From: Acidobacteriota bacterium | Lineage (GTDB): Bacteria > Acidobacteriota > Blastocatellia > UBA7656 | Length of the DNA stretch: 64,000 nt | Assembly: GCA_038040445.1 (NCBI GenBank) | Contig: JBBPIG010000004.1 | Span: 142,190 to 206,189 of the forward strand | Direction of reading: 5' to 3' | In this document: positions 1 through 5,786 of the stretch, piece after piece | Position numbering within the stretch: the stretch's first letter is position 1 | Layout of the letters: each line of letters starts with the position of its first letter | Made by a program: the position numbers and the translations under genes | Notes under the pieces: model-generated | The model's input: only the letters and a program-made list of their open reading frames with translations | Told to the model about the DNA's origin: nothing | The model's database searches: none

Positions 1-3000
1 GTGCGAGCGATCTTCTCCACGGCTTCGGGATCGTAAGACTCGCGCCCATTTCGAGTCTTCCGTTCGCGTGACAGCAGCGACCAGCGGCCGGCACTCGACA
101 TCGCGTAAACTGCTTCGCGGCGCTTTCGCCTGGTCGAAGCATTAGTCCGTTTGTTCGAAGGAGTGAGCAGCGCGCGCAAACCTGTAAAGCTGTCTGCCGT
201 CACAAGCCCGCACGCAACCAACTCCCCGAGCGCTTCTTCGATCTGTGTTTCGAGCAGCGAAACCCCTTCGAGCAGGTCGGTGAAGAACGACGCGCCGCCG
301 CTTACAAGGTATTCATAGATCGATTGCGCGGCCGATGAGAGATTGACGTCGCTTATTGAAGGCTGTGGGAACAGCGGCGCCCATAGCGATAGATTCTTTC
401 TGTTTAGCAAAGCTATCGGGGTCGTGCGCACCGGACCCGATGCTTTCAAGCGTTCCGGTCCCGGACGCGGCGTCGTCAATCGCGCCCACATCACTTGCCC
501 TGAAAGACAGAGCGAGTCGAGCCACGCCGGATCGTAGTCGACCATCCTTGCTGGAAAGATCTCGCCTTCCCAAGCAGCAGCGGGGGCTTCGAAACCCTCG
601 AGCTGCGAGATCAATGCGGCGAGGCTTTCGGGACTCTCAACCTGATGTTCCGGCGCGAGCTTCTGCCAGGTGAGAAGAAAGCGCACAAGGTCCGCACTCG
701 AGACGGGCTCAATCTCCTGGCGCAGACGATTCAGCGTGTAGCTATGAATTCGCGCGAGCAACCGCCGCGCGCACCACTCGGTCTCTTCAACACCTGGCGT
801 GAAGCGCCCGCGCATCACGAACCCTTCGCCCTCCAGTCTCGCAAGCGCGGCTTCAATCGAGAGAGCCGGCACGCCCATCGAGCTCGCCAGCGCGCCGATA
901 GTCGTCGGCCCAACTCCCTCGAGTCTTCCACGCACAATTTCAACAAGCGCATCGTCGCTCGTCCACGTAACAACAGCGAGAGCATCGGGCGCCGATATCG
1001 CCGGTTCAGTTTTGGATAGCGGGAAGATGGCCTGCAGTTGAGGCAGCCGTTCCGCGGCGACCCAAAGATCTCGACCGCCCGTGCGAAGAACCGCGGCTCG
1101 CCGATCCGCTTCAAGCTCGCTCAAGAAGGCGGGCCAATCTGGTTCACGGTTCCCTTCATCCGCTGTGATGAAGCCAAGCTCGACCAGTGCATCGTGCAAC
1201 TCGTCAGCTCGATCGACCTGCGGCCACACCTCGTCGCGCACTCGCTCGATCGCTCCAACATCGAGGGCGCCAAGATCGGAAGCCGTCTCAGGATCAAGCC
1301 ATCGCCTCTGAAAAACCGCGCGGGTTCTGCGCTCTTCAAGCGGCGCATCGTCCAGGTAGGCATACGGCCTCGCGTTCAAGATCTCCTGTGCGAGCGGCGA
1401 GGCTTCGACAACGTCGCGCGCGATCAAGGTCTTCTCGCCGCGCTCAATCGACGCGAGCAAAGCCTCGAGGCCTTCGATGTCCATCGCTTCTTCGAGGCAG
1501 TCCTGAACGGTCTGGTTCACAAGCGGGTGGTCGGGAATCTCGATGTCGCCTGCGGGCAGGTTCTCACCACACGCAACTTGATCCGGAAAAACGGCCGACA
1601 GCAGATCTTCGGCGAACATCCGTTGAAGCTGGGCCGGAATCTTTTTGCCCCCGCGACGCCGCGGGACGGCAAGCGCGCGAGTTATGTTCCATCGCCAGCG
1701 AATCTCAAACATCGGCGCGGCCAGCAGGGCTTGAGTCAGCAACGGTCGAACTGAAAACGAACGCAGATAATGAAAAACATCATCGAGCGCGAAGCTATGC
1801 GTCGCGCCCAGCGACAACACGATCGCGTCTTCGGTCGCGGCTGCCTGAAGCTCAAAGTTGAACTTGCGGCAGAATCGCTTGCGAAGCGCCAGCCCCCACG
1901 CGCGATTCAACCGGCTCCCGAAGGGCGAGTGAATCACCATCTGCTGTGACCCGCTCTCGTCGAAGAAGCGTTCGATCACCAGCGTCTCTTGCGAAGGCAT
2001 CACCCCAAGCGCGACCTTCGCTCCTATCAGGTACTCGACTATCTGTTCGGCGGCAGCAGTTGAAAGACCGATCTCATCAATCAGCCACGCAAGAGTTGAC
2101 CCCGCAGCATCGGGGTAAGCATCAGCGGCGAATCGGTCAGCGATCTCGGTGCGCAGCCGCGAGACCGCCGCGGAAAGCTCATGCGTTCGCGACGGCGCTT
2201 CGCCAAGCCAGAACGGAATCGAGGGCGGTTTGCCGTGAGCATCGGCGACTCGAACACGCCCGTTCTCGACCCTCACGATCTCCCACGACGTGTTCCCTAA
2301 CTGGAAGATGTCGCCTTGCATGCTCTCGACTGCCCAGTCTTCGTTGACCGTGCCGATTACCTGATCTGTGGGCTCGAGCACGACGGTATAGTCGGCGTTG
2401 TCGGGGATCGCGCCGCCCGAAGTGATCGCCGTCAACCGCGCGCCTTTTCGCCCGCGCAACCGGTGGTTGATCATGTCGTGATGCAAGTAAGCTCCGCGCT
2501 TTCCTCGGCGAGTTGTGAACCCATCGCGCAGCATCTTCACTATCTCGTCGAACTCGCTTCGATCGAGGCTGCGATACGGATATGCGCGGCGGATCGTCTC
2601 GAACAACTGGTCCTCCGTCCATTCATCGCTTGCGACCGCGGCAACGATCTGTTGCGCGAGTATGTCGAGCGGCTTCTCGGGAATGGACAACTGATCCAAC
2701 TCGCCTCGCCGAATCGAATCCAGCAGCGCCGCGCACTCAATCAATTCGTCGCGAGTAGTCGGAAAGATTCTTCCTTTCGGAAAGCCGGTCACGCTATGGC
2801 CCGACCTGCCGACGCGTTGAAGCAGGGTCGAAATCGCGCGAGTCGAACCGAGCTGGCACACCAGATCGATGTCGCCGATGTCGATTCCAAGCTCGAGCGA
2901 GGCCGTCGCAACCAGAGCTTTCAACTCGCCTGCTTTCAAGCGCTGTTCGGCGACAAGTCGTTGCTCACGAGCCAGGCTGCCATGATGTGAAGTCACGTTC

Positions 3001-3902
3001 TCGTCGCCGATGCGCTCGCCAAGATAACGCGCGACTCGCTCGGCCATCCTTCTGGTGTTGACGAACACGAGGGTCGTTCGATGAGTGACGATCAACTGAG
3101 CGAGACGATCGTAGACTTCATCAAAGACCTCGCCTGACATCACCGCGCCCAGCGGCGAGCCGGGGACCTCAATCGCGATATCGAGTTCGCGCTTGTGACC
3201 TGAGTCGATGATCGTGCAATTCGGCGTTCCGTCTTTGTCGATGTTCCGTGTTCCAACCAGGAATCGCGCGACTTCTTCGATGGGACGTTGCGTGGCCGAG
3301 AGACCTATGCGAACCAGATCGTCGCCGACAAGCGCTTGCAGTCGTTCGACGGAGAGCGCGAGATGCGAGCCTCTTTTGCTGCCCACCATCGCGTGGATTT
3401 CATCTACGATCAACGTGCGCGCGGTCTTAAGCATGCGCCGGCCGCCTTCGCTGGTGAGCAAGATGTAAAGCGACTCGGGCGTGGTGACGATGATGTGAGG
3501 CGGCCGCTTGATCATCGCTGTGCGTTCTGATGCAGGAGTGTCGCCGGTGCGAACCATCGTGCGAATGTTGATATCGTCCACCCCGAGCAACTTCAGTTCT
3601 TGCTGAATGCCTGCGAGCGGTTCCTGCAGGTTCTTCTGAATGTCGTTGCTCAGCGCTTTGAGCGGCGAGACATAGACGACGTGCGTGGTGTCTTCAAGCG
3701 AGCCGGCCAGCGCGAGCCTGACAAGATCGTCGATGGCCGCGAGAAAAGCCGATAGCGTCTTGCCGGATCCCGTAGGCGCCGAGATCAACGTATGCCGGCG
3801 TTCTTTGATCGAAGGCCACGCGCGTTCCTGCGACGGTGTCGGCGCGTCGAATTGCTTAGCGAACCAGTTGGCGACCGCGGGGTGAAAGAGGTTGAGGCTC
3901 AT
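1..3902 (-). CDS. lhr: Lhr-type large ATP-dependent helicase (3' end cut by window)
   Basis: Reading the minus strand from an ATG at 3902 gives at least 1300 uninterrupted codons running off the left edge, so the C-terminus is missing. Visible motifs in order are Walker A APTGSGKT (about residues 42-49), DEIH box (167-170), the SAT motif in GLSATQRP and motif [10 protein letters not shown], followed by a long Lhr-specific region. This order and the length over 1300 residues fit the Lhr family of superfamily 2 3'-to-5' DNA helicases, linked to DNA repair. The start follows [10 protein letters not shown], typical of the family. The gene is monocistronic as far as visible; the upstream neighbour is a toxin-antitoxin pair on the same strand. 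Confidence 0.93.
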
Positions 3903-4131
3903 AGCGCGGTATTATACCAGCGGCTCTTATCGGAAAGAACCGGCGCTGGAGACAATGCAACAACCCTGTCGGCCTGCGTGAAAGGTACCGCCGGCGATGA
4001 CCGTGTCAACGACTCTCGGCGCCAGATACCATCAACACAATGACGCCCTTCAGCGGGTGCCCGGGATGCCAATTCCCCTCATAGCTATGTTGAATGAGCG
4101 TCTCTTCCAACTACTTGTTAAGCCAACCCCG

Positions 4132-4401
4132 CTACAGTCGTTTAAGCAGTTGATCGTATTCAGCGTGAGAACCGATCCAAAACCAGTAAATCTGATCTGT
4201 CTCTAGCAATCCCACTGCCCGGTAGCCTATTCCCACACGCACTGCGTAGATTGCTTGCGGTTGGCTAACTCGCTTGAATTGGAGGCTAGGGTGATAAGGA
4301 TCGGTTCGCCACAGCTCATAGGCTCGATCAGCTTGTTCTTGAATTGCACGTGGGAGCTGTTCAAGTAGCTTCCGGAACTGCTTTGTAGCTCGTGATCTCA
4401 C
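4132..4401 (-). CDS. RelE/ParE-type toxin, type II toxin-antitoxin
   Basis: An 89-residue basic protein with the RelE/ParE fold signature: helical N-terminus (FRKLLEQLPRAIQEQA), then beta strands ending in YWFWIGSHAEYDQLL. The final IGSHAEYD block is typical of ParE/HigB-like toxins. Its ATG overlaps the stop of the upstream gene by 4 bp (4398-4401), which indicates translational coupling with the presumed antitoxin. Known members inhibit gyrase or cleave mRNA on ribosomes; the sequence does not decide which applies here. Confidence 0.8.
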   Translation of the reverse strand: MRSRATKQFRKLLEQLPRAIQEQADRAYELWRTDPYHPSLQFKRVSQPQAIYAVRVGIGYRAVGLLETDQIYWFWIGSHAEYDQLLKRL

Positions 4402-4637
4402 AGACTCCGGTCACCACCTGGGAAAACGTCATCCAGCGGGTTAGTATCCCCGGCGCGGATTTCTTGCCGCGCCAGTTCAGATAGCCGGTCCCATTGCTGG
4501 TCAGTGGTCGCATTGAAGCGGGTTGTCCATTCTTCTTCATCCGCTAGTTCGGCAAGGATACGTGCGGCAATAGCATCCTGCTCCTCGGCGGGTCGTTTGC
4601 CAATCTCGGTGATAGCTCGCTCGAGTAGTTCAGTCAT
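4398..4637 (-). CDS. Antitoxin partner of the RelE/ParE-type toxin
   Basis: A 79-residue acidic protein (MTELLERAITEIGKRPAEEQ...) placed directly upstream of the toxin with a 4-bp ATGA overlap. It is rich in Glu, Asp and Ala, with a predicted helical N-terminus built on the EEQDAIAARILAELADEEEW stretch, as in small antitoxins paired with ParE-like toxins. No classical HTH or RHH motif is obvious, so the assignment rests on size, charge and operon order. Confidence 0.72.
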   Translation of the reverse strand: MTELLERAITEIGKRPAEEQDAIAARILAELADEEEWTTRFNATTDQQWDRLSELARQEIRAGDTNPLDDVFPGGDRSL

Positions 4638-4850
4638 GCCTTCTGTCCTTCAGGCCATAGTAGTGATTGCAAATGGACCACGCAAGTTAAGGTAAGGGCC
4701 ATTGGTCTAACGCCAATGGATGAGGAGCGCCGCTTTTTGGAGTCGCCTCCATCCTCTTGTTCGTCGCGTGTTTGGTTTCAATTTCTTATCGTTCGTTGTT
4801 TCAAACTCTCCCATCATGTTAAAGTCGAAACAAGTAAGGAGGAGTCACTG

Positions 4851-5102
4851 ATGTCGAGTAGAACCTTAACCATAGATACACTGATACAGTCTGATTTATG
4901 GCGCGAGTTTGAGAAAACAGCCCGCGATAAACGTCGTCGCCCAGTTGAATTACTGGCGGATGTGATTGCTGATTTTCTCGAAACACAAGAAGGTGTGACT
5001 ATATTCGACGACATCGAGCGCGACATCCGCCACACGAACTACACTGAAGACGATGCTGTTGAACTTGTAAAAACTTATCGTGCTTCACGGAGACAATCAT
5101 AG
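4851..5102 (+). CDS. Small antitoxin-like protein, paralogue A
   Basis: An 83-residue protein starting at the ATG at 4851, preceded by a strong GGAGG at 4838-4844; the longer reading from 4716 lacks a ribosome site. It aligns over its whole length with the antitoxin at 5550-5786: both have LIQS/LLQS, WREFE/RREFE, a central PV-LA block and the C-terminal YTEDDAV-LV-TYR. It converges on the PIN toxin gene and overlaps its 3' end by 6 bp. It has no toxin of its own on its strand, so it is either a second antitoxin for the PIN protein or a relic of an inverted duplication. Confidence 0.75.
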   Translation: MSSRTLTIDTLIQSDLWREFEKTARDKRRRPVELLADVIADFLETQEGVTIFDDIERDIRHTNYTEDDAVELVKTYRASRRQS

Positions 5103-5549
5103 CTCTCCAAGTTCTTGCAATAGCTCTAACGGCGTGACAATCTCAAAACGTAACCCGCGCAACTCCGCCTTCGGAATATCGAGCAAGTCATGATCACGCG
5201 ACACGAGATACTTGGCTTTGCCAACGCGTGCCGTGGCGAGAAATTTATTGTCTGTGGCATCACGGCTCAAACGGACGCGGGTTCCGAGATTAACCTGTGT
5301 CACATAGGAAGCGGTGTCAAGACGAGCCTCAAGCAGTTTCAAAACATCGGGTGCGATGCCGGCATAAGCTTCCAAAACTCTTAGATATTCACGCTTAACG
5401 GGTGGGCTGATGATCAGTTGCAACTTACGCTGAGATTGCCACAAATCCATCACGCGACGATTGATGCCGTGGCGATCGTGTTTGATAAAGCGTGTGACAA
5501 ACAGGTTCGTATCGAACACCACAGGAATACGGGCTCTTTTGCGAGGCAC
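5097..5549 (-). CDS. PIN-domain toxin (VapC-like ribonuclease)
   Basis: A 150-residue PIN domain. The first catalytic acid is Asp13 in VVFDTNLFV, followed by the KREYLRVL acidic helix, SRDATDNKFLATA and the VSRDHDLLDI block, matching the PIN toxin family (putative toxin component of TA systems). Members are Mg-dependent RNases. The start lies one base after the stop of the antitoxin at 5550-5786, so the two are co-transcribed. Its 3' end overlaps the convergent paralogue of that antitoxin. Confidence 0.85.
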   Translation of the reverse strand: MPRKRARIPVVFDTNLFVTRFIKHDRHGINRRVMDLWQSQRKLQLIISPPVKREYLRVLEAYAGIAPDVLKLLEARLDTASYVTQVNLGTRVRLSRDATDNKFLATARVGKAKYLVSRDHDLLDIPKAELRGLRFEIVTPLELLQELGEL

Positions 5550-5786
5550 TTACTTTTCTCCATATTGTTGCCGGTAAGTGCGAACTAAATCCACTGCGTC
5601 ATCTTCGGTGTACCCACTCTTGCGTCCTTCGCGTTCGATTGCGTCAAAGAGTTTGGAATCTCTTTGCGATTCGATGAACTCAGCCATCAATTGAGCCAGC
5701 ACATCTACCGGTTTTTGCTTGGAAGAGCGGGCGGCGGCTTCAAACTCGCGGCGCAAATTCGATTGTAATAAAGCCTCAATGGTCAT
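5550..5786 (-). CDS. Antitoxin of the PIN toxin, paralogue B
   Basis: A 78-residue protein immediately upstream of the PIN toxin gene with no spacing. An AGGAGG-type site lies just upstream of the ATG at 5786 (5792-5798 on the minus strand). About half of its residues match the convergent protein at 4851-5102, including the C-terminal YTEDDAVDLVRTYR. Gene order antitoxin-toxin and tight coupling support the antitoxin role; the fold is not recognised by eye. Confidence 0.75.
   Translation of the reverse strand: MTIEALLQSNLRREFEAAARSSKQKPVDVLAQLMAEFIESQRDSKLFDAIEREGRKSGYTEDDAVDLVRTYRQQYGEK

Follow-up and report, generated by a model that had tools for sequence, protein, structure and literature searches.

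The window, by which we mean the whole stretch of 64,000 nucleotides analysed here, carries a gene for a PIN-domain toxin (T2) flanked by two antitoxin genes (A1 and A2) that are paralogous to each other, A2 directly ahead of it and A1 convergent to it. The reading that we prefer, and to which we assign a probability of about three in four, is that A2 and T2 make up an ordinary type II toxin-antitoxin module and that A1 survives from another module, likewise of this family, that lost its toxin by deletion, the short overlap between A1 and T2 being the joint left behind. Four observations carry this reading: the paralogy of A1 and A2, a relative of A1 with a truncated toxin behind it, the fact that homology to that relative breaks off at the 3' end of A1, and the frequent loss of toxins in the family. 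So read, the locus would be a clear small case of toxin-antitoxin decay in which the toxin is the first to go and the antitoxin stays, several times within one family, and would illustrate that an overlap suggestive of regulation can be the scar of a deletion.

Gene layout and the A2-T2 module

The genome that contains the window comprises 6.75 Mb in 72 contigs; the features discussed here are collected in Table 1. The A1 frame is open back to an ATG at 4716, and the start at 4851 is favoured because of the Shine-Dalgarno-like AAGGAGGAG at 4836-4844. The stop codon of A2 (5550-5552) is followed without any gap by the T2 start at 5549, so that A2 and T2 very likely constitute one operon, in agreement with the preliminary description of this DNA, in which the PIN gene had been taken as co-transcribed with the second antitoxin gene. 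The overlap of the 3' end of the PIN gene with the outer antitoxin gene, also noted there, is evident in the ORF coordinates: the T2 stop occupies 5097-5099 and the A1 stop 5100-5102, giving 6 bp in common. The ORF list holds no plus-strand toxin ORF 3' of A1, and the sequence past 5102 is the 3' end of T2, on the other strand.

Table 1. Positions of the genes and elements discussed (window coordinates unless another sequence is named)
Feature	Sequence	Positions	Strand	Remarks
A1	window	4851-5102	+	83 aa; outer antitoxin gene, read as an orphan (ORF list)
T2	window	5097-5549	-	150 aa, GTG start; PIN_3-family toxin gene
A2	window	5550-5786	-	78 aa; antitoxin gene paired with T2
A1 upstream (promoter/leader) region	window	4757-4850	+	homology to the sequence ahead of the related gene in G006:C80
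A1/T2 tail-to-tail overlap	window	5097-5102		6 bp; interpreted as a deletion/rearrangement joint
Lone family gene	L003 (same locus as L011)	1477-1722	-	tRNA-Leu(CAG) and sensor kinase gene as neighbours
Lone family gene	L013	1390-1746	+	sensor kinase HAMP/HisKA/HATPase by Pfam
Integron integrase	L075 (G000:C28:1-20000)	3329-4351		attC-like sites from 5087 on

That T2 is a PIN toxin, as originally proposed, is upheld by its scores against PF13470 PIN_3 (54.7 bits, cut-off 27) and TIGR00305, 'putative toxin-antitoxin system toxin component, PIN family' (47.3 bits, cut-off 29.15). Its acidic residues D13, E54, D97, D100 and D119, which we take to be the catalytic ones, are invariant in an alignment of three rows; the AlphaFold model of T2 is poor (pLDDT 47) and was left out of the analysis. 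T2 scores 253 bits against itself and the next best protein of its own genome only 48, so that this genome has no second close copy. A search for the toxin in 162 genomes of the class, with a threshold of E 1e-15 that leaves more distant PIN genes outside the count, gave eight loci (nine places, two of them pieces of one toxin, that of L046), all eight of which adjoin an antitoxin of the same family; the order antitoxin then toxin also recurs at the other paired loci of the family. The PIN domain, its conserved acidic residues and this consistent pairing suggest that A2-T2 is most likely an ordinary type II PIN toxin-antitoxin pair standing beside an orphan antitoxin. It is established that in such families the antitoxin binds and silences the PIN ribonuclease. 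By analogy, the small antitoxin A2, translated just before T2, would bind this predicted PIN-domain ribonuclease and silence it, as in the usual type II pair.

The module thus resembles the PIN_3/TIGR00305 PIN-RHH modules, which a passage of PMC2701414 places among the commonest pairs, both in that T2 passes the two curated cut-offs and in that a small antitoxin gene lies immediately upstream of the toxin; it differs from them in that Pfam offers no convincing match to the A1/A2 antitoxin family. Plasmid matches of T2 (n=3) are 30-31% identical to it, with a CopG-type RHH gene annotated under the match.

The A1/A2 antitoxin family

The paralogy of the two antitoxins, proposed in the preliminary description, is borne out by 38 identical residues of 72 (53%; 79% positives; E 5e-29), with the likeness greatest towards the C-terminus (YTEDDAVELVKTYR versus YTEDDAVDLVRTYR). 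A homologue of the paired antitoxin A2 with no toxin in its own operon, A1 has the features of an orphan antitoxin. In the tree, A1 clusters with its closest relative, L012 (support 95/94), and A2 is sister to them (91/92); the named relatives of A2 come from metagenome-assembled genomes labelled Pyrinomonadaceae and uncultured Acidobacteria, which by kinship makes the source of the window an acidobacterium.

Neither A1 nor A2 has a match above cut-off in Pfam or NCBIfam, and Pfam searches with 14 members of the family gave at best E 1e-4, to unrelated families each matched by one or two members. A profile search of solved structures with A1 found no antitoxin. An assignment of A1 to the ribbon-helix-helix (RHH) fold by sequence was dropped, since family and profile searches gave nothing. 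The AlphaFold model of A1 is helical (pLDDT 70), and Foldseek pairs it mostly with RHH chains (ParD, PutA, CopASO, CopG, MatP), every match having an E-value above 1; judged from this model, A1 and A2 are probably antitoxins of the RHH kind.

A truncated toxin beside the closest relative of A1

Among the 162 genomes of the class, the best match of A1 beyond its own genome (88% amino acid identity) is found in G006, which belongs to the same family and another genus; the locus, at G006:C80, is here called L012. At the DNA level the two are 85.7% identical over 349 columns (window 4757-5100) that take in the gene and its upstream region. Homology stops at 5100, within the last codons of A1, the proteins ending in ...RRQS (A1) and ...RRK (L012), and beyond these columns the surroundings are unmatched save for one 32-base match far off in the window. 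What comes next is, in L012, the 5' stub of a toxin belonging to that locus and, in the window, the 3' end of T2. The stub consists of 14 codons reading VARKARIPVVFDTN, then a stop, and resembles the beginning of T2, VPRKRARIPVVFDTN; no convergent toxin lies beside the L012 antitoxin gene. Given this stub 3' of the gene, the A1-type antitoxin of the G006 lineage once had a toxin of its own. The window shows no trace of a toxin belonging to A1, and none of the genomes searched yielded an intact partner for A1, the lost toxin being represented solely by the 14-codon stub in another genome.

Since the homology to L012 ends at the last codons of A1, the 6-bp overlap is best interpreted as the joint of a deletion or rearrangement and not as a new control device, the position of the joint being taken from two sequences only. 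A1 would then be the antitoxin remaining from a second module of the A1/A2 family; a deletion or rearrangement would have removed its toxin, brought its last codon up against the 3' end of T2 and left the two genes convergent with 6 bp in common. We infer that two homologous modules, inverted with respect to each other, once stood convergent and that one of their toxins was deleted. The joining event in the window is not retraceable, because the contexts of A1 and L012 differ outside the 349 columns.

As in the solo or orphan antitoxins left over from degraded type II modules and treated in passages of PMC7192599 (Klebsiella) and PMC2701414 (prokaryotes), A1 is intact and has no toxin 3' of it, a toxin remnant persists in a relative (L012), and paired relatives occur elsewhere; it differs from them in lying tail to tail with the toxin of an intact paralogous module. 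The same passages put solo genes at >50% in the largest families (PMC2701414), count 2253 orphan antitoxins in Klebsiella and propose that orphans are explained by degradation, anti-addiction or regulation (PMC7192599). Among the papers listed by literature searches for orphan or solitary antitoxins, for two antitoxins around a toxin and for modules of this kind in Acidobacteria, none describes the A1/T2/A2 layout in its title or in the opening of its abstract.

Toxin loss across the family

The antitoxin search returned 17 places in 11 of the 162 genomes, and the survey counts the 14 loci with >54 bits. The three weakest (two in G006:C147 and one in G000:C29, 53.3 bits or less) were left out; the toxin search found none of the T2 family next to any of them, and including them would add more lone antitoxins. 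A whole toxin is present at six of the 14 loci (window A2, L009/L042, L010/L043, L045, L047 and L049) and is absent or reduced to a stub at six (window A1, L012, L044, L016, L013 and L011); at one, L046, its reading frame is disrupted, and one, L048, is cut by the contig end. The loss is plain in the comparison of L044 with L010, which match over 1306 columns as far as the end of the antitoxin, past which L010 keeps the toxin and L044 has none. Toxin loci without an antitoxin numbered none of eight in the same genomes. In this family toxins have been lost and antitoxins left, the reverse never being seen in the genomes searched, and orphaning is common in what is a small family.

Neither phages nor plasmids gave a match to A1, and viral contigs gave none to the antitoxin or the toxin. 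A search of the wider phylum, with genomes drawn evenly and 14 candidates scored per genome, met the antitoxin family in 2 of 396 genomes, both in this class, a weak negative; in the searches made here the family was met in this class only.

Some loci have further neighbours. A BrnT/BrnA pair directly precedes the antitoxin at two related loci (L010 424-1755 and L079 2417-3347; Pfam on L010), and the PIN toxin is kept at one of these and lost at the other, where a GmrSD_N gene comes next. At L016 (1477-1985, +) the lone antitoxin-family gene shares 4 bp with an ORF of 85 aa that lacks a Pfam match and resembles the beginning of a type I restriction specificity protein. Distant lone relatives scoring 36-39 bits occur in two genomes (L004/L020 1468-1698 and L019 1465-1725) and encode mutually alike proteins of 76 and 86 aa; the ORF directly before the L004/L020 gene we take to be that of ribosome recycling factor.

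Selection on A1 and on lone members

Between A1 and L012, dS is 0.57 and dN 0.064 (dN/dS 0.11). Of the 94 upstream bases that align between them, 9 are mismatched, with 5 further columns holding gaps; the mismatches are proportionally fewer than at the fourfold sites (9 of 32 differ; Fisher p 0.017) or the third positions (22 of 82; p 0.003) of the gene. The low dN/dS and the upstream conservation therefore indicate that selection has acted on the A1 gene and on its promoter region; this selection may, in part or whole, date from the time when both A1 and L012 had toxins.

For the lone members in general the signs point in two directions. L011 and L013, which lack a toxin in either genome and have matching surroundings, are saturated at synonymous sites and have a dN of 0.25, suggesting that a function maintains some of the lone members. 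A contrary sign is the branch of the lone L044, which measures 0.27 versus 0.06 for its paired sister L010, as relaxed selection would give.

Alternative readings of A1

The preliminary description had also suggested a combined type I/II control, with the A1 transcript as an antisense RNA on the toxin mRNA. On this reading the transcript would run into T2 and lower the toxin mRNA, beside neutralisation by the A1 or A2 protein. The convergent layout is real, and a simple scan finds no terminator-like site just after A1 (+) or just after T2 (-). Antisense control of a type II toxin also has a precedent: PMC9325379 reports a convergent antisense RNA at the relBE2-asRelE2 locus of Mycobacterium tuberculosis as 'type IIb', so that the addition of antisense to type II control is an idea already known. 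That locus is like ours in its convergent transcription against a type II toxin gene; the antisense RNA there was shown by experiment, however, whereas the convergent unit here is a protein-coding antitoxin gene known from its sequence. Conservation of the convergent layout in relatives would favour type I or type IIb control, yet when the three-gene arrangement was looked for in other genomes, two antitoxins around one toxin were found at one of the 14 family loci, the window itself. L012, moreover, keeps the conserved promoter region beside a stub of its own toxin and faces no convergent one, so A1 and its promoter region were not shaped to silence T2. The ORFs overlap by a mere 6 bp, and the terminator and promoter counts are indistinguishable from those in shuffled sequences. 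With no terminator-like site after either gene, read-through could proceed both ways, each transcript being antisense to the other, and such reciprocal read-through would silence A1 too. We regard the antisense reading as unsupported and very improbable, and think just as little of its fuller form, in which a single toxin deletion between inverted modules would have made A1 a separately promoted second antitoxin and at the same time an antisense brake on the T2 mRNA.

The orphan reading of A1 concerns its origin and is compatible with a present role as a working second antitoxin for T2, retained because it buffers the toxin or because it makes the loss of A2-T2 harmless (anti-addiction); we hold such a role to be a serious possibility, at somewhat less than even odds. 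The C-terminal part of such antitoxins usually binds the toxin; as this is where A1 most closely resembles A2, A1 may still bind T2, and its protein would then be a second source of antitoxin, given expression of A1. The A1 ORF is intact, its dN/dS low and its upstream region conserved, and because A1 is intact and has experienced purifying selection it may still neutralise T2. On the other side, A1 and A2 share only about half of their residues and antitoxins of one family are often specific, and the selection on A1 may be older than its orphaning. Cross-interaction and anti-addiction roles of orphan antitoxins are discussed, and the latter proposed, in part of PMC7354431. If A1 does still neutralise T2, the locus would be a natural experiment on whether a cell is released from a neighbouring addiction module by an orphan antitoxin.

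It is also conceivable, though unlikely, that A1 is an antitoxin no more and regulates the transcription of other genes. Other lone members sit in settled places, e.g. L011/L003 and L013, and these may have turned regulator; the A1 model, too, matches mostly DNA-binding RHH chains, at the insignificant E-values given above. Against a regulatory role, no likely partner gene follows A1 on its strand, and no significant operator word is shared by the regions before A1 and A2. A candidate operator ahead of both, GTTTCAAA, was rejected, its 8-base word being no better than chance: a shared word at least as long turned up in 682 of 2000 pairs of windows drawn at random (pairs drawn <200 bases apart being counted as not reaching 8 bases) and in 427 of 2000 shuffles.

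Other origins and neighbouring elements

Two genomes of this genus carry a lone family gene flanked by tRNA-Leu(CAG) on one side and by a sensor kinase gene on the other (Table 1). An origin of A1/T2/A2 as an integron cassette was dropped, since no attC-like site was found in the window or in the nine relative loci scanned. The same genome does contain an integron integrase, on C28 (459 bits, well over the curated cut-off), with several attC-like inverted repeats starting GCCTAAC near it, and that region looks like a chromosomal integron. PADLOC and PHROGs gave weak matches only. Close to A1 in the window lies a second toxin-antitoxin-like pair (4132-4401 and 4398-4637, both on the minus strand), comprising a ParE_like protein (PF24732, 36.2 bits, cut-off 24.4) and a small upstream ORF that overlaps its gene by 4 bp.
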